A stretch of DNA of 64,000 bases, from NCBI GenBank assembly GCA_030685235.1, contig MU839104.1, forward strand, positions 124,001 through 188,000. The letters are read 5' to 3'. The position numbers and the translations under genes were made by a program. This document shows, piece by piece, positions 16,599 through 26,328 of the stretch. Below the pieces are notes generated by a model, which made no database searches, had not been told where the DNA came from, and was given only the letters and a program-made list of their open reading frames with translations. Each line of letters begins with the position of its first letter. Positions within the stretch are counted from its first letter, which is position 1. The stretch comes from Copromyces sp. CBS 386.78. Taxonomy: Eukaryota > Ascomycota > Sordariomycetes > Sordariales > Sordariaceae.

Positions 16599-19500
16599 AT
16601 GCCCTCCGTCTACTCGACCGTCTTTCAGAACGTTATCCGCTCCGGATTTTCAAAGTCCTTCACCCACGGCTACGCCCAGTCATTCGTAGCTGCCACCCAC
16701 CACAATGTTCTAAACCCCCAGAACCGGCCATCCTTTGCTCGGCGTAGCAGCACGAGGTTGGGTGGCCGCCTCTCCAAGCTCGGTCTTCAGGATGCTTTCC
16801 GCACCAGCAACAACCTGAACGTTGGCGGTTCCGTCGAGGCTCGCCATGACAACAAGACGACGGTCCTCCCCAGCAATGCCGGTCTTCTGGATGCCTACTA
16901 TGAGCAGCTGCAAAAGTCGCAGGCTGCCCATGAGGCTGGAGAAGAACAAGACCAGGAATGGGTTCAGTTCCAATTCCCCAAGCTTATCGAGTGGAAGCCT
17001 ACCGCCGCTTCCGTTCTCGCCCAGGGAGACGCAAACACTCTCGCTTTGGCTGCTGATGAGGTTGCCAAACTGGATGATGGCGTCTCCCGGGTTCCGGCCG
17101 AGGCTGAGGCCGCCCTCGCTCACATCAACGCTAGAATCGAAGAGGAGATCGAGGTTCGGAAACAGCTAGAGGCCGTCGAGGAGGAACTCGAGTCTCTTCG
17201 GGCCACATCGCCCGCCCTTGCCGAAAAGCTGGAGGAAGAGATTCGATCCCGATCTCGCACTCCGGCCTCCCACCTGCGCACCCCTGCCAGTGTCGCCCGG
17301 ACTGCCACTCCTCCGCTTGACGCTCAGTCTATCAGCTACGCCGTCCACCTCACCAAGCTCTCCGAGGCTGCCCGCTATGCCGAGATTCCTGCCGTGTTCG
17401 AGGGCATGCTGCTCGCTAACATCCAGCCTACCGCGACCGCCTATAATGCCCTCCTCATGGCTGCTATTCACCTCCCCTCGGAGAAATCCGAGATTGTCTC
17501 CAAGGCCCTGGATGTCTACGCTGATATGCTCAAGCGCAAGGTGTCTCCTGACAGTGACACCTACAACATCCTCGTCGGCTTGCTTGCTTCTCGTTCGCTC
17601 GAGGTGTTTGCTTCCAAGAGTCTTCTTCAGGATAAGCGTCTCCGCTTCGGTGGCATGGACGAGCCTGGCAAGTTCATGTTTGTCTCACAGGAGCTCGACT
17701 ATGCCATTCTTTGCGAGGACGATCGTCTGGACTTGGCTTTGAAGCTTTTCCAGTCTTCCATGAACTCTGACAAGGCTGTCTACTCCTCCGAGACCTACCA
17801 CCAGCTTATCTCTGCTTGTGCTCAGTCTGGTCGGGTGTCGGACATGCTTCACCTGTTTGAGCATCTGGAGGCGAACCGGGTAATTCCGTTCGCCGCCACC
17901 TTCCCTGCCATGATCACAGCATTCGCCAACGCGGGTGATTTGGTCAGTGCCGTCGAGTGCTACAATGAGTACCGCAACCTCGCCATTGCCAACGACAACG
18001 GCGAGCCCACTCTTCAGGATCGCCTTGACGCCCAGGTGTACGCTGCAGTCATCAATGCTTACGTTGTCTCTGACAAGCTTGAGGGCGCCATGAAGTTCTA
18101 CAAGAAGATTGTTGACGAGTATGACGTCAGCGCCGCGGGTATCAAGGATGCCATCATCAGCGGTGGTTTTGTCAAGGGATTCCTCGACCGCGGTATCTAC
18201 GAGGAAGCACTCCGCTGGGCTCAGAGCGTGGAGCAGGATGACAGGACGCGTGTCATGAGCCAAGTTGTCATTGCGGCTGCTGACCATGGCCACAAGAACG
18301 TTGCCGTCACTGCCTTCTCCACCATTGCCTCTCACAACGAGGCCGCCGATCCTGCGATTGCTTTGCTCGCCATGAGCGTGCGCCAAGCCGATGTTGCCAG
18401 TGCTGCCAGGTACTGGGCCGCTCTTAGCCACCCCGAGGTCAAGGCCACTTCGTCTTTCATTGAGCCCACTGCCATGTTCGCTATTGCTCTCATTGGCTCC
18501 GGCCAGGTTGCCGAAGGCTTGACTGAAGCCGAGCACATGTTCCATCGCATTTGCGAGAGTGCTTCCGCTGAGACCAAGGCGCAGGTGGCTGATGAGATTG
18601 AGGAGGCTGCCGAGTTCATTCACGAGTTCATGACTGCTCGCGGCGTCACTGACCCTCGTACGCTCCCATCGCATGCTCCATACGCCCCTCAATCTCTCGG
18701 CGCTTCCCCGTACCTGCCTACCCCCACCGCGTCAATCGAGGATAGCTTCGACCCATATGCCCACAGCACCGACTTCAAGGGTTCCGCGCTCATCTCCGAG
18801 GATCTCGAAGGCAATGGCCGCAAGGGTCCCAAGTTGGACGATGCTCTTACTCGCTTCCGGAACATGCGCCGCGCTGGTCGTCATCCTCGCTACATCACCT
18901 ATGCCAAGCTTATCTCTGCTGCTGCCCGCGACGGCAAGATGGATCTTTGCTTCGACATCCTCGCCATGGCCCGCACTGACGTCCCGCTTCTCCCTCAGTA
19001 TGCTGTCGTTCGCTACGGTTGGTCCTCGATTCTGGATGCCATGGTTGGTGCTTGCCTTACCTTGGGTGACAGGGCCGGGGCCGAGCAGTACCACCAAGAA
19101 CTGCTCGCCATGGGCTCTACTCCCTCTGCCAACACCTTCGGTCTCTACATCACTACTCTGAAGGAGTCTACCAAGACTTTCGATGAGGCTTCGGAAGCTG
19201 TCAAGATCTTCCACCGGGCCAAGGCTGAGGGCGTCGAGCCCAGCTCGTTCCTCTACAACGCGCTGATTGGCAAGCTCGGCAAGGCTCGTCGCATCGATGA
19301 CTGCCTCTTCTACTTCAACGAGATGCGCAAGATGGGTATCAAGCCTACCTCTGTCACCTACGGAACCATTGTCAACGCTCTCTGCCGCGTCAGCGACGAG
19401 AAGTTTGCCGAGGAGCTCTTCGACGAGATGGAGGCCATGCCCAACTACAAGGCCCGCCCGGCCCCTTACAACAGTATGATGCAGTTCTTCCTGACCACCA

Positions 19501-20156
19501 AGCGCGACAAGACCAAGGTCCTCGAGTACTTTGAGCGCATGAAGGCCAAGGGCATTTCCCCGACCTCGCACACGTTCAAGCTCCTCGTTGACACCCACGC
19601 CACCCTGGACCCTGTCGATCTGACCGCTGCCGAATCCGTCCTCGACATGATCCGTGCCTCCGGCCAGTACCCCGAGCCCGTCCACTACGCCTCTCTCATC
19701 CACGCCCGCGGCTGCGTCCTTCACGACATGGAAGGCGCTCGCAAGGTCTTCGATTCGGTCATCAACGATGTCTCCATTGCTCCCAGCCCCTGCCTCTTCC
19801 AGGCTCTGTTCGAGGCCATGGTCGCCAACCATCACGTCGCCGATACCGAGCCCATGCTCGCCGAGATGCGCGCCAGGCGTATTGAGATGACTCCGTACAT
19901 CGCCAACACTCTTATCCACGGATGGGCGGCCGAGAAGAACATTGCCAAGGCTAAGGAGATCTACGCGGCTGTTGGTCGCGAGAAGAGGGAGCCTAGCACT
20001 TACGAGGCCATGACCCGCGCGTTCCTCGCCGTCGAGGAGCGCGAGAGTGCTAAGGGTGTCGTGAGCGAGATGCTCGGGCGTGGGTATCCCAGTGCTGTTG
20101 TTAACAAGGTGCTGGAGTTGTTGGGTGGCGGTAATGCTGAGGAGGCTTCTGCGTAG
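16599..20156 (+). CDS. Pentatricopeptide-repeat (PPR) protein, probably mitochondrial
   Basis: One exon, 1185 residues. PPR proteins bind organellar RNA through tandem 35-residue helical hairpins and control processing, stability or translation of single transcripts. The N-terminus (about 60 residues) is rich in Arg, Ser and small residues with almost no acidic residues, as in a mitochondrial presequence. A coiled-coil-like acidic segment (EEEIEVRKQLEAVEEELESL) lies near residue 185. PPR-like motifs then appear, for example PTATAYNALLMAA, PDSDTYNILVGLL, SSFLYNALIGKLGKARRID and KPTSVTYGTIVNALCRV. Many repeats fall between about 255 and 500 and again between 755 and 1170. The length is in the range of fungal CYA-5/Pet309-type proteins, but I cannot tell which orthologue group it belongs to. 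A leader intron precedes the ATG. Confidence 0.9.
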   Translation: MPSVYSTVFQNVIRSGFSKSFTHGYAQSFVAATHHNVLNPQNRPSFARRSSTRLGGRLSKLGLQDAFRTSNNLNVGGSVEARHDNKTTVLPSNAGLLDAYYEQLQKSQAAHEAGEEQDQEWVQFQFPKLIEWKPTAASVLAQGDANTLALAADEVAKLDDGVSRVPAEAEAALAHINARIEEEIEVRKQLEAVEEELESLRATSPALAEKLEEEIRSRSRTPASHLRTPASVARTATPPLDAQSISYAVHLTKLSEAARYAEIPAVFEGMLLANIQPTATAYNALLMAAIHLPSEKSEIVSKALDVYADMLKRKVSPDSDTYNILVGLLASRSLEVFASKSLLQDKRLRFGGMDEPGKFMFVSQELDYAILCEDDRLDLALKLFQSSMNSDKAVYSSETYHQLISACAQSGRVSDMLHLFEHLEANRVIPFAATFPAMITAFANAGDLVSAVECYNEYRNLAIANDNGEPTLQDRLDAQVYAAVINAYVVSDKLEGAMKFYKKIVDEYDVSAAGIKDAIISGGFVKGFLDRGIYEEALRWAQSVEQDDRTRVMSQVVIAAADHGHKNVAVTAFSTIASHNEAADPAIALLAMSVRQADVASAARYWAALSHPEVKATSSFIEPTAMFAIALIGSGQVAEGLTEAEHMFHRICESASAETKAQVADEIEEAAEFIHEFMTARGVTDPRTLPSHAPYAPQSLGASPYLPTPTASIEDSFDPYAHSTDFKGSALISEDLEGNGRKGPKLDDALTRFRNMRRAGRHPRYITYAKLISAAARDGKMDLCFDILAMARTDVPLLPQYAVVRYGWSSILDAMVGACLTLGDRAGAEQYHQELLAMGSTPSANTFGLYITTLKESTKTFDEASEAVKIFHRAKAEGVEPSSFLYNALIGKLGKARRIDDCLFYFNEMRKMGIKPTSVTYGTIVNALCRVSDEKFAEELFDEMEAMPNYKARPAPYNSMMQFFLTTKRDKTKVLEYFERMKAKGISPTSHTFKLLVDTHATLDPVDLTAAESVLDMIRASGQYPEPVHYASLIHARGCVLHDMEGARKVFDSVINDVSIAPSPCLFQALFEAMVANHHVADTEPMLAEMRARRIEMTPYIANTLIHGWAAEKNIAKAKEIYAAVGREKREPSTYEAMTRAFLAVEERESAKGVVSEMLGRGYPSAVVNKVLELLGGGNAEEASA

Positions 20157-21599
20157 AGCAGCTGTCTCTAGAGGATTGCCGAGTCGGTTTCTCTTTTCTT
20201 TTTCGGTTGTCCGATTTGATCACGGTCTCCTCTTTTTTTTTCTTTTTGGGTTGGGAATGACTTTTATGATACCCCCTAGCAAGAAAGTTTGCATCATGAC
20301 ATTGCTGAATGTGTTACGGTTTACGGTTTTTCTTGGCTTCAAAGGGGGTATTATTGCAAACGAGGTCATTGGGATTGGGATGCCGGATGGATAGAAGGAA
20401 GGAAAAAAAGAGAGGGAAGGCTGCGATCATGATTTTGTTTTTTCTTTCCAAAAGTTATTTCTGGGCTAGATCTGGGTCTGGTCATTTCGGTCAAACATCA
20501 GCGGGCGGCGTTCCGGTGTCAAATTCTTGTTGGATGGGTGGGTTGGTATCAAACCGGGGGCCCCGCCAGCCGACAATGTGTTCGGTCAAGGTTGTGTGGC
20601 TCGGTTGACGGAAGGGAAGGGTTGAAAATAGAGGATCGGGCTTGCTTTCTTTTTCTTTTTGTTATACCCTTCTAGGGCGGGCGCTGCTAGCTAGGTACCA
20701 TTTATCGGTTGAGGCTAGAAGGAAGGAAAGGAGGACAGGCATGGCATGGCGCGGCATGGAACGTATACCACCACGGCAAAGCCAACCGTTAGACGTTTCG
20801 AGGAAACGAAATCTCCACTCTGCACATATTATTAGAAGCAGCAAAAACAATTTAAATGGTACCACCACTCGGAGCAGCAGATTAAAACGTGATTGACAAT
20901 TCGAGATTCTAGCGTGCCCAATCCAATGCTGCTTTATTCGTTACCTCTATATCCTAGTTCCCAACTAAACCCATACCGACCTCTCCAAAATATCGCGATA
21001 ACACATTGAAGTGCGTAGACAATCATCGGCCAAAACACAAATATGAAGGTAGCGGGCTGTACAGAATCACTTGATTCATGACAGACACGCAAAAGCAGAA
21101 AGGATGAGAGCATGGAGAAGTTCAGCCCGTATGGACTAAGGTTTAACAATAAGTATACGGGGCACTTGGCACGACAAAGAGATATACCAGACACTCGCCT
21201 TTCAACAAAGAAGGTAGAAAAGAAGATACTGAGGTAGGAAGACAGATAGATGATTGCACAGGTGAAAGAAACGGGGGGAAAGTAAGGTAGAACAGCAATT
21301 GCAAGGAGGAGAATAGAAAGAAGGAGGGGGTAGCAAGAATGAGGAAGAGATAGGAGCAGAACAATAGAGGAAAGCAAAATGGAGAAAAGTCAACTCGAAC
21401 TATCCAGTCATCAGCCAGCCACTCGGCTGGGTTTGGTAGGTACATAGACATTCTCTTCGCAAATAAATCGATGGACGGTAGGTAATGGTGATCCGTGAAT
21501 GGGCGTATCGGTACGGGGCCATACATACATAGACGGAGTCTACCTAGTCGTATCTATTAACGTTGGTACCGTAGTGGAAAAATCGGGAAATCAGGAAGG
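20157..21599. other. Region between the PPR gene and the microexon locus
   Basis: The left part is the PPR 3' region. The right part (about 21.1-21.6 kb) lies downstream of the microexon array on the minus strand and probably carries its terminal exon. It has a 127-codon minus-strand frame (21526-21143) of mostly hydrophobic residues that may only reflect pyrimidine-rich sequence. Confidence 0.45.
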
Positions 21600-24065
21600 C
21601 TACTTGGGGGGATTGTAGGCTACACAGATCAAGTGGCCTACCCGTGTCAAGTACCTGTATGCGGGCCTGTTAGCACGTAACTCTATTCTAGAGTTGAAAT
21701 GGGCAGGAGGGATGACTTACCTCCCCTTGGAGGGGTTTATGAGAGTGAAAGTGAATTTATCTGTAGGTAGCTTGTCAGTGTGTGGGGGGTGGGGGGGGAG
21801 GGACTGGCTTACCTGTGACCGCATAGTAGTTGTCTCCTCTGTTTGATTTTACCCTAGGACCGGCCTAGAAAAGTGGTTAGCATGCCAGAAGAGGATGGTG
21901 GACTCACCTCATATATCTAGGTGAGTTGTATTTGGATAACCTAGATTGCAGCAGTCAGTTTACCAGAAAAGGGACAGGGAGTACTTACCTTACCTAGGTA
22001 TCGGGAAGTGTCGCTGGGTTTGTTTCGGCCTAGAAAGGAGTGAGCTTTTCTGTCGATAAGTGTTCAACTTACCTGTGAGTTATGGGTCTCTTCAATCTAC
22101 AAAGATTAATTAGCTTGCCAACAAAGGAATTTGCCTCTGATGTTTTGAGTTGAAGATAGCTCGGTGTCATCCGACCTGCGAAGGGTGATTAGCTTTCCAG
22201 ATGGAAGGGAATATTACCTAGAGTGGTGAGACAGAGTCCGTTATTTTCCGCTTCTGTCTGCACAAGCCGTCGAATCTAGAGTAAGTCGTCACTATTACGG
22301 GAAGGATAGCGAACTTAGCTTGGACTAGTAGTGTTGAGTTTTGTCATTCTAAAAAAAAACTTAAAAAATGTAGTCAGCTTTCCAACAGAGAGGGAGTAAC
22401 TTAGGTATCTGTGAACGTCGAGTTGCAAATCGGTTGGGTATCGATCGATTTCTGTAATCAAGTGCTCTGTCAGCTTCTAAAGGGAGCCGGATGTTGACTT
22501 ACCCGTGAAGTATTGTGTCTTTACTCCGGTCGGTGTCTCTTGGCTCGTCCTAGAGGTTATCGTCAGCTGTTGTGGATAGATGGACACTGACTCACCTTGT
22601 GCTCTGATCGAGTGACTCTGAAGTGATTTGTTCGGCCTAAAGACACAAAGTCAGCATGTGGACGACTGGACGGTGGCTTACCTTGATATTGGAAATCCGC
22701 GGATATTCTGGTTAATCGAGGGTGAGATGTGGGTGAAATCGCTTTTCGAGGTAAGATTCGGGGTCGGGCTATGACAGGAAGGGCCAAGTCGCATTTCGTT
22801 CTGTGGAAATGTTAGTCGAGGTTCCGAGTTGGGCCCGGGACCGGGCATCGGACGTCGAACGTGGTTCTACGAATTCGTCAGCTTTCCAAGAGATGTGTTG
22901 GGCTTACCTGGGAAATATTATAATTCGTCTCCTGCAGTGAGAAGAGGTCCGACCTAGAAGGAGTCACCTGTCAAGCCAGTAATTGGGTTGACTTACCTGG
23001 AGTATTGGCTCGGCGGGAGTTGATGAGATGGGCTCTCTTTGACCTAGCAAAAATCAGCTTTCACACTATGGGGAGGTTGACTTACCTGAAAGATTGCCTT
23101 GGCGATCATGTCCTATGAAGCAGGTGGTCAGTTCTTCGGTCAAGGGTCGAGATTGACTTACCTCTGATGGTTTTTTATGCTGAAATTGTTATCCTAGAAA
23201 AGCTGTCAGCCACCTAGCGAAGGGAGGGGTCACTTACCTGCGAAACTAACGGGCTTGTTTCATGTGGGTTATGGTTCGGCCTAGAACAGAGACTTAGCTT
23301 TGGACCTAGAGGAGATAACTTACCTGCCATTGTCGCCTTGGGGAAGATGAACCTGCCAGAAAAGTGTCAGCCTCCAGTCAGGGAAGGGGTTGACTTACCT
23401 GTGAAATAATCGTCCGGCAAAAAGTGACCTGTAGATGAGCAGTCAGCAGAGAAATCACTGAGGAGTAACTTACCTACCTATTAAGTATTGAGTTCGGGAA
23501 GGATTGTACCAAGCTAGTGAAAGAAGTGAAAGGTTTATTCGATAAATGGCGGCACTTACCTGTCAGATGTATGGTTTTCGACGGTGTGGTTCTCTAGTAA
23601 ATGGATAGTCAGTTGGTGACCAAAGGGGAGGTCGACTTACCTGCAAGGGGTCGTCGGGACGAATTTCCGGGTGAAAGTATTCTGGAAAGATCGTCAGCTA
23701 TACACTGAAAGAAGAGTTGACTACTTGTGAGAAGGGAACGAGGTGCTCCGAGGTTGGTTCTGCGAGAGGGATTAACTGGGTACAGGAGGTAGAGGGATAA
23801 CTTAACTGGAAGTGAAACCAGGATCAGCGGTTCTGGAGTAGATAGTAGAGATGGATTCGCCTCGAAACGATGATATCGGATGTTGTCTGAAAACGGTCAT
23901 TAGCTTCGTCTCGACATTTTATAAATCGTTGGTTCAGATGAATCTCTCGTATACTCCGCCGTGATATCTGTTGTCAAGGTTGATGGTGTGTTTGTGTTCT
24001 AGAATCTGTGTTGTGACATGGATGTTGAGATGTTCCGCCTGATGACTTCTCAAAAAACTTCCAGA
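21600..24065 (-). other. Microexon-array transcription unit (about 25 introns)
   Basis: Read on the minus strand, a TATA box at 24095-24088 is followed by about 25 introns. Exons as read: 23886-23807, 23759-23725, 23681-23641, 23593-23560, 23513-23474, 23428-23399, 23352-23324, 23280-23238, 23193-23162, 23112-23086, 23043-22997, 22953-22908, 22866-22682, 22636-22596, 22549-22503, 22451-22405, 22348-22319, 22275-22218, 22175-22135, 22096-22073, 22029-21994, 21940-21908, 21864-21813, 21760-21721, then a terminal exon from 21654. About half of the donors are GTAAGT, and others are GTAAGC or GTGAGT. Branch sites are mostly GCTGAC or GCTAAC; acceptors are CTAG or CAG. Introns are mostly 38-53 nt. 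Exon lengths are not multiples of three and no frame stays open throughout, so the product may be non-coding. Ends of the transcript are inferred. No known family is recognised. Confidence 0.75.
21655..23681 (-). repeat. Tandem array of diverged intron-plus-exon units
   Basis: About 22 units, most 65-100 bp long, each made of one microexon and the following intron. Exons tend to begin GCCGAAC or GTCGGAC and to end ATACTTCACAG or similar. Introns tend to begin GTAAGTCAACC, contain GGAAAGCTGAC and end TTTTCTAG. Similarity is partial and spacing varies, so this is old tandem duplication under selection for splice signals, not a simple satellite. The largest unit (exon 22866-22682) contains a relic of another unit whose donor is weak. 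Confidence 0.65.
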
Positions 24066-24087: not shown

Positions 24088-24095
24088 TTTATATA
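24088..24095 (-). promoter_or_regulatory. TATA box of the microexon locus
   Basis: TATATAAA on the minus strand, followed about 30 bases later by a leader containing A/C-rich sequence typical of fungal 5' UTRs. Its position just upstream of the first predicted donor (23954) supports transcription through the array. Confidence 0.6.
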
Positions 24096-24823: not shown

Positions 24824-25496
24824 TTGGATTTTGTTGAAGATGCATAAACATCAAGCACCTATAATGACGACAACAGATACTGCAATTCTTTGGTTGAGAT
24901 ATGAAAACAACAAGGCGAGTTCAAGGTAGCATGAGTTGAGTTGGACACTGGCCAATATGATGAATCCCGGAAGGGGCAGCCCGTTCAGCAAATGGATGAA
25001 CAAAGCACTCTGGAGTGGGGTCGGTCGCACCCAGAAACCTGGTCTTTGCGAGCGATCCAGACCAGAAGGTTGGGAGAAGACGGTATAATAGAATAAAGAA
25101 ACCGGTGTGACGACAAATCCAAAACTCCCATTTGTTCCGTTAGATACATTCTCAAGCATGTTGACCGGGTAAGTATGCCATGCCTCCCAGATAACCACAA
25201 GTTGATGATAAGTCAGAAACAGTAAACATGTGTGCTGTCCTGTAAAACGACCGAAAGATGTGTTCCCAGCATTGAGACCGAAAAGCTGGCGATCAACGCC
25301 TGATAAACCGCAACAATCATTCCGAGCTCTTGAGCTCTCTCCACAGCCAGGTAGAAACAACAGCATCATCTGTTGCTCAGCTCTCTCCACAGCCAGGTAG
25401 AAACAACAGCATCATCTGTTGCTCACCTCTATTCCTCACCTCTTCAGAAGGTCGCACTCAAGTGACCACTCTCTTCCACATTTCCTAATTATCAGT
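24824..25496. other. Intergenic region between tRNA-Leu and atg33
   Basis: Contains a perfect 46-bp tandem duplication (25333-25424) shortly downstream of the atg33 stop. A 179-codon minus-strand frame here lacks an ATG start and is rejected. No gene is seen. Confidence 0.6.
25333..25424. repeat. Perfect 46-bp direct tandem duplication
   Basis: Copies at 25333-25378 and 25379-25424 are identical and adjoin without a spacer. They lie 73-164 bases beyond the atg33 stop codon, probably in its 3' UTR or just after it. Identity suggests a very recent duplication or an assembly artefact. Confidence 0.9.
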
Positions 25497-26328
25497 TCAA
25501 ATAATGACAATAGTCTGCGGACCCAGTCCATCGCCCCAAATGCCGACAACCGACATCAAGAAGGCAACGCCAGCCACAGCGCTCTGGACAATGTTCTTCT
25601 TCAAGAACACCTCCACATTAGCGCGGACCTCTTCACCATTGACATTGGCCAGCCCCTCCTCGACATCCTCAGAGCCCGAAGTCGCCTCGCTGTGGGAAGG
25701 ATCACCGAGAACCTCGTAGCTAGCCTCCAAGCCGCGGGGCGTGCTGCTCTTCTTCTTCTGTTGCTGGCTGCTGCGGGCGGTCACGAACGAGACGGAGGAC
25801 ATGCCGGACGAGAACGAGGCGGGGACGGCGGGGGTGATGAAGCTAAAGTACGGGCCGAAAAAGCCCGAGGTGATGAAGCGGGAGCCGAAGACGAGCAGCG
25901 AGGTGTAGATCAGGTAGGGGTGGCGGTAGGCGCGCGGGGAGAGGTAGTAGGCGATGGCGAAGGCGGAGCCCGAGACGGTGCTCAGTGTGCGCAGGTGCTT
26001 CTTGGCCGAGGTGGATAGCGATTCGAGTGCGCGCGCGGCATCGTTTGCCGATGGGAGGGTCAGGAGGGCGGGGATAGTGAGTGTCGAGAGGGTGAAAGAC
26101 ACGCCCTATGGAGATTGCTGGTTAGTGATTGGATATTCATTCAAGTTGAAGTGTGATAAGTCGAAGTAGAGCGCGGATGCTCGAATCTTCAATTGCGCCG
26201 TTTAGTAGCGTCAAAGTCATTGTCGCGACAGCGAAAAGGAAGAGGTGCGGGAGAGATAGACGTACTGTTAGCAGGCCGAGGGACACGGTCCCTACGAACT
26301 TGAGGACGGAAACGCCTCTCGTAGTCAT
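25497..26328 (-). CDS. atg33: Autophagy-related protein 33 (mitophagy)
   Basis: Two exons, 26328-26266 and 26105-25497, encode 223 residues. The 160-nt intron (GTACGT, CACTAAC branch, CATAG) joins LGLLT to GVSFTLSTLTIPALL at phase 0. In yeast Atg33 is a mitochondrial outer-membrane protein promoting mitophagy in stationary phase. Membrane segments are visible at VSVLKFVGTVSLGLLTGVSF, the AFAIAYYLS region, a stretch around LIYTSLLVFGSRFI, and near the C-terminus (AVAGVAFLMSVVGIWGDG). A polar Ser/Gln/Glu-rich loop separates the last segment. The start codon context and the characteristic N-terminal sequence fix the first exon. Confidence 0.88.

Follow-up and report, generated by a model that had tools for sequence, protein, structure and literature searches.

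What kind of transcription unit would carry some two dozen introns of near-minimal size, one directly after another, and which of its properties might selection maintain? The question is raised by a locus in a 64,000-nucleotide stretch of genomic DNA from Copromyces sp. CBS 386.78, which we call the window. On its minus strand a tandem array of about 25 tiny introns and microexons had been predicted. We have analyzed the architecture of the array, the relatedness of its parts, its coding potential and the retention of its splice signals, and have compared it with known systems.

Architecture of the array and density of its splice signals

Parsing the minus strand by eye from 23805 to 21655 gives 24 slots for introns, each about 45 nt long (Table 1), and the predicted number is borne out with a little trimming. 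The introns are 33-56 nt long with a mean of 44.8 nt, the last (I24) being either 33 or 66 nt. If a single outsize exon of 185 nt is excluded, the exons of the array measure 24-58 nt (mean 39, SD 8.4, coefficient of variation 0.22). Their lengths are mostly not multiples of three, as had been stated, with only 5 of 23 divisible in this way. In 21 of 23 steps the distance from slot to slot is 75-101 nt, and the composition alternates along the array, with 30% T in the introns and 20% in the exons; the microexons between the introns are A/C-rich.

A GTRAG[TC] donor is found in 18 of the 24 slots, and 20 slots start with GT, including I02 and I18, which have no GTRAG[TC] donor. The four slots with no GT start (I01, I16, I17 and I19) have donors that are dead or very weak. 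CTRAY branch sites are present in 18 of 24 slots, and donor and branch site occur together in 14, counting I24 in its 66-nt form; CTRAY is missing from I04, I07, I11 and I20, in which the donor is strong. The 185-nt exon contains what appear by eye to be remnants of further units, an acceptor-like CTAAC...CACAG and a remnant of GAAAAGCGAT.

Table 1. Features of the array and of its putative transcript (positions in the window)
Feature	Position	Strand	Basis
TATA box TATATAAA, presumed core promoter for transcription of the array	24088-24095	-	sequence; promoter function predicted
Putative first exon, a leader in which the ORFs are very short, one of them ending in TAATG	23806-24060	-	by eye; start site predicted
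I01, degenerate TTAAGT donor	23805-23760	-	held-out profile 7.6 bits
I02, weak GTAGTC donor, good branch site	23724-23682	-	held-out profile 13.1 bits
I03-I12, the core run: an unbroken series of ten introns of 41-49 nt, GTAAGT or GTAAGC donors throughout, exons 27-47 nt	22867-23640	-	
185-nt exon in which one or two units have probably decayed	22682-22866	-	by eye; decay presumed
I13-I15: introns of 45, 46 and 51 nt, donor and branch site strong	22452-22681	-	
I16, I17: intron-like, degenerate CTAAGT donors	22276-22404	-	
I18 (GTAATA) and I19 (GCAAAT): donors weak, branch sites good	22097-22217	-	
I20-I24: strong donors; I20 without CTRAY	21655-22072	-	
I20	22072-22030	-	
I21	21988-21941	-	
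I22	21907-21865	-	
I23	21812-21761	-	
I24	21720-21655 or 21720-21688	-	
Putative last exon	20933-21654	-	3' end predicted
127-aa ORF in the last exon	21526-21143	-	
Pyrimidine tract in the last exon	21400-21201	-	
AATAAA in the last exon	20938-20933	-	

The density of splice signals is far beyond that expected by chance, and the array is real in this sense. In 2.2 kb of minus strand the sequence AGGTAAGT was counted 12 times compared with 0.02 expected from 500 dinucleotide shuffles, and GCTGAC 9 times compared with 0.36 expected; the plus strand of these 2.2 kb has neither. A strict regular expression for donor, branch site and acceptor gave 16 matches in the array, corresponding to 15 distinct introns once it is allowed that I05 was matched through two donors. 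Elsewhere in the window the same expression matched 0-2 times per 2-kb bin on either strand. In 200 kb of the same genome, sampled as 20 stretches of which 4 were placed on already known matches, the densest 2.3 kb on one strand held 3 distinct matches (4 before deduplication). A chain model found 16 introns in the array, and at most 3 in any of the tiled 2.6-kb windows outside it. The claim that other genes of the window have 0-4 introns agrees with these window-wide scans, at the level of the scan rather than gene by gene.

Genome-wide searches with short composite patterns were more equivocal. The pattern CTGAC-AGG-microexon-AGGTAAGT gave 13 matches, four in the array and nine on nine other contigs, and the reversed control also gave 13; isolated matches are therefore at chance level and it is the cluster that is unusual. 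GTAAGT..AG..GTAAGT gave 153 matches, 9 of them in the array, but since the reversed control gave 342 the single matches are uninformative. Over contigs C1 to C81 the other runs of at least three such matches were AT-rich repeats on C14, in which branch sites were absent by eye. The search for GGAAAGCTRAY..AG was likewise uninformative, with 52 matches, 3 in the array, compared with 60 in the control. AT-rich tandem repeats with GTAAGT every 65-100 bp or so and no branch sites lie at C14:64905-65372, C14:71512-72218 and C10:131180-131351; they are probably a degenerate repeat family that mimics the array when donors alone are sought.

No second copy of the array DNA was found in its own genome at E ≤ 1, using a search that skips simple repeats and common words. 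A simple tandem repeat was considered and rejected, TRF finding within the array just short, low-scoring G-run repeats near 21780-21802.

Relatedness of introns, exons and units

We have compared the segments between donor and branch site in 20 introns with their own dinucleotide shuffles. The segments are clearly alike, with z = 7.6. The segments between branch site and acceptor are not clearly alike by the same method (z = 1.35), nor are the exon interiors when compared with shuffles (z = 1.0). The deduplicated set of 15 introns found by the regular expression gave a pairwise z = 5.05; an earlier value of 5.65 had included I05 twice. Control segments of 14-30 nt gave z = 0.47 for all 19 and values from -0.5 to 1.7 in six samples, where control introns are intron-like matches to the regular expression and not annotated introns.

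A leave-one-out profile gave a median of 11.6 bits for 18 held-out introns compared with 2.2 bits for 47 controls (highest 11.0), with p = 4e-8. Shuffles that preserve the splice signals reached the held-out score in 157 of 1080 cases, and 7 of the 18 introns (I04, I05, I07, I14, I15, I18 and I23) were matched by at least 10 of their 60 shuffles. For the six slots outside the profile, the number of shuffles out of 60 that reached the score was 0 for I16 and I19, 3 for I01, 7 for I24, 9 for I02 and 19 for I17. A sequence model built from the 18 introns gave 21 matches at E ≤ 10 in 264 kb of the 49.8-Mb genome, every one inside the array. They comprise 17 of the 18 members, which the construction of the model leads one to expect, and 4 of the 6 slots left out of it. 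The best match of all was a left-out slot, I16 (22349-22404, minus strand), which carries the CTAAGT donor, whereas I17 was unremarkable. From its sequence, I16 is apparently a recently killed intron.

The exons retain some likeness at their ends. An exon start of the form NNCGR is present in 7 of 22 exons compared with 0.74 expected and a maximum of 4 in 2000 shuffles, for a motif picked after looking at the sequence. The bases from -10 to -4 at the exon ends gave z = 3.1 and exon bases 2-8 gave z = 2.0. Evidently the original prediction that exons and introns resemble each other from unit to unit is correct for the introns and partly so for the exon ends, but fails for the exon interiors, and with these unrelated it cannot be said that whole exon-intron units are still recognizably alike. 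The comparison of units with shuffles carrying the same signals came out as had been anticipated, the units scoring higher both on average (z = 8.2) and for the top ten (z = 4.4), with the maximum reached by 6 of 200 shuffles.

The likeness of units does not depend on the distance between them; neighbors are no closer than distant units (Spearman -0.05, p = 0.49), and thus recent head-to-tail duplication is not visible. The simplest history would be an old duplication of an intron-centered unit, the exon interiors having drifted beyond recognition, with the copying of introns alone as the alternative. The array might then have grown by repeated short duplications of a segment centered on one intron, the copies diverging later.

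The alternative deserves consideration because related introns between unrelated exon interiors are the pattern expected if introns alone were copied. The locus would then be a site of intron multiplication, at which a single intron was copied, in the manner of introners, within a non-coding transcript, and the resulting array would have no function. We regard this as unlikely. The exon lengths are too even for random insertion, no similar introns were found in the rest of the window or in 200 kb of the genome (about 0.5% of it), and splice signals of no function should decay like the rest of the sequence. Nor is there a symmetric fold: neither the inverted repeats nor the stable folds of introner-like elements were found in the 24 introns, for which folding gave z between -1.61 and 0.84. 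Over its first 1200 nt the spliced RNA was also unremarkable in structure. Introner-like elements and the sister stwintrons of Hypoxylaceae (PMC4457414, PMC8469720) are also related spliceosomal introns in one fungal genome, and fungal introner-like elements reach hundreds to thousands of copies (PMC8469720). However, they are dispersed over many genes and have inverted-repeat symmetry, whereas the introns of the array are evenly spaced at one locus, as far as the 264 kb scanned can tell of dispersal, and are asymmetric.

Coding potential and small RNAs

The array could alternatively encode protein, as a fast-evolving microexon gene or the precursor of a repeat peptide, or as an intron-packed leader before a small ORF in the last exon. 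There are spliced ORFs of 123 and 112 aa, and the best ORF over 2048 splice choices is 142 aa. The longest in the array, at 123 aa, has p = 0.14 by comparison with shuffled exons, however, and 142 aa was exceeded in 8 of 25 shuffles. The ORF of 127 aa in the putative last exon was reached by just 3 of 500 shuffles of that exon, but when the whole spliced RNA was shuffled 77 of 500 reached this length. It spans the pyrimidine tract, a stretch of 46% T and 33% C that leaves no place for stop codons. Its advantage in length is offset by the bias of the sequence and by its codon usage. The codon adaptation of the 123-, 112- and 127-aa ORFs is 0.41, 0.34 and 0.40 compared with 0.34-0.45 in their other frames, which is the off-frame level; four genes of the window have values of 0.59-0.73 in frame and 0.30-0.33 off-frame. 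A word-seeded protein search of a collection rich in Sordariales proteins gave no homologue of the 123- and 112-aa ORFs, and the 127-aa ORF had only a sub-threshold Pfam match (16.9 bits compared with a cut-off of 25). ATG triplets number 9 compared with 6.7 expected, so that there is no depletion of the kind seen in leaders.

The micro-exon genes of flatworms have very short exons and are protein-coding, with microexons that are usually multiples of three in length. Neither a majority of exons divisible by three nor a supported open frame was found in the array, as judged from the exon lengths and from the ORF and codon tests above. The array shares very short exons with these genes and with the Xlr2 microexon of Trichoderma (PMC11121469), but those microexons are protein-coding, whereas ORF support is absent here; functional microexons are described in that source as previously undescribed in filamentous fungi. 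Taking these results together, we consider a protein-coding gene improbable, the length of the 127-aa ORF in the last exon being the single result that points toward coding. The suggestion that the locus generates combinatorial protein isoforms finds no coding signal to sustain it, and the proposal of an apparently non-coding transcription unit is upheld by the ORF shuffles, the codon adaptation and the homologue search. From its sequence the RNA of the array is most likely non-coding, a small protein from the last exon being the remaining possibility.

A non-coding transcript might serve as host for small RNAs encoded in its introns, either in the manner of a snoRNA host or as the source of a family of intron products of about 45 nt. 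Introns that are alike between exons that are not do recall snoRNA host genes. In N. crassa box C/D snoRNAs are mostly intronic, and some have non-coding hosts in which the ORFs are short; the snoRNAs shown in the published account are 73-125 nt in length (PMC2780460); the non-coding host RNAs of its clusters I-V, with short ORFs and some alternative splicing, resemble the array in these respects. Spliced snoRNA host RNAs are poorly conserved across fungi, and the internal exons of clusters in the Candida clade and Yarrowia are small or absent (PMC3596301). A snoRNA host would show, between species, introns better conserved than exons in a non-coding transcript; the values for the array (z = 7.6 for intron segments, z = 1.0 for exon interiors) compare paralogous units only. 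Fungal polycistronic hosts have few introns with a snoRNA in each, while the array has some 20 minimal introns in which no snoRNA was found. At 33-66 nt these leave no room for a box C/D snoRNA plus flanking sequence, and they have no stable folds. A search of the window with Rfam gave no snoRNA that reaches the gathering score, although unknown families would be missed; at E ≤ 5 between 20800 and 24720 there was one match, to sR38, which has 15.8 bits compared with a cut-off of 50 and lies on the plus strand, outside the introns. A small-RNA host is thus very unlikely. Telomerase RNA was also considered and rejected, there being no CTAACCC or longer telomeric form within the array.

The SNORD116 (116HG) and IPW-A exons of the Prader-Willi region likewise belong to tandem repeats of exon and intron within a single long transcript that is non-coding. 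The introns there carry snoRNAs, whereas no cargo was found in the 33-66-nt introns of the array, and its exon interiors are unrelated.

Possible selection on splicing and what it might mean

Having found neither a convincing coding signal nor an intron cargo, we can ask which parts of the units have been retained. In the 20 introns that start with GT, the commonest base is kept in 90-100% at positions 1-5 and 75% at position 6, compared with 45-80% (mean 58%) at positions 7-14. The splice signals are kept while the remainder drifts, as had been proposed. With neutral decay at 58% retention a unit of ten needed bases would be intact with a probability of 0.004, whereas 14 of about 26 slots have both signals, the total being the 24 slots and two suspected within the 185-nt exon. 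This argues for selection on splicing, although the presence of degenerate donors indicates that it does not act on every intron. The estimate treats the units as having diverged independently from a single ancestor, depends on how many bases are taken to be needed, and uses paralogous units of one genome in place of orthologues. The slots were defined partly through the signals that are counted, a bias that their regular spacing limits but does not remove.

That the array is a decaying relic, once functional and now losing its splice sites, would account for the four degenerate donors, the four introns with a strong donor and no standard branch site, and a 185-nt exon that resembles merged dead units, but there is only a slim chance of this, since 18 of 24 donors are strong and 13 are unbroken from I03 to I15, too many for a locus long neutral at about 58% interior retention.

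We therefore favor, with a probability a little above one half, a non-coding gene, presumably transcribed by Pol II, in which the selected property is repeated splicing and not sequence. Transcription would start near 24.06 kb and proceed on the minus strand to near 20.93 kb, and removal of some 18-20 introns would leave an RNA of about 2 kb. Purifying selection would act on the splice signals in most units. The most likely mechanism is that successive assembly of spliceosomes on the nascent RNA is what counts, the sequence of the exons being nearly free. The benefit might lie in export or stability of the transcript, in local transcription or in spliceosome load. Expression of the gene itself, an effect in cis on its neighborhood and the general load on the spliceosome are three roles that sequence may not be able to separate.

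A more specific form of this reading can be put forward tentatively. The product of the gene might be the act of splicing, with about two dozen minimal introns kept by selection, no cargo in the introns and no message in the exons; the locus would then be a device that engages spliceosomes, or a splicing-dependent regulator in cis. A function in splicing itself and a site of intron multiplication are mutually compatible suggestions, and either or both may apply.

Fungal lncRNA catalogues likewise contain intergenic non-coding transcripts, some of them spliced. In P. oryzae 395 such transcripts are joined from more than two exons (PMC8475275). The lncRNAs of A. fumigatus mostly have one intron and at most ten (PMC12921299), and most lincRNAs of N. 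crassa have none (PMC5738166). The statement that no fungal system of this kind has been described agrees with the titles and opening lines of abstracts in the literature covered, which takes in little from subscription journals. If spliced as predicted, the array would be the densest in introns of the fungal non-coding genes known to us. It would offer a natural test of whether splicing as such, irrespective of sequence, can be selected, and would document at a single locus the multiplication and death of minimal introns, with donors that are variously intact, weak and dead. Copromyces is close to Neurospora, in which the tools for testing exist.

The array is flanked by a convergent PPR gene (16599-20156, plus strand; Pfam PPR) and by a tRNA gene (24823-24733, minus strand). 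The latter lies upstream of the putative promoter and is read as tRNA-Leu with a CAG anticodon, its type being left open by ARAGORN. Beyond the tRNA, as seen from the array, is atg33, with an ORF at 25497-26105 on the minus strand that is 100% identical, over the query, to a protein of Copromyces sp. CBS 386.78 and 96-97% identical to Neurospora proteins among the matches listed. Just past the 3' end of this ORF there is a 46-bp tandem repeat of 2.1 copies with 98% matches (25333-25430).
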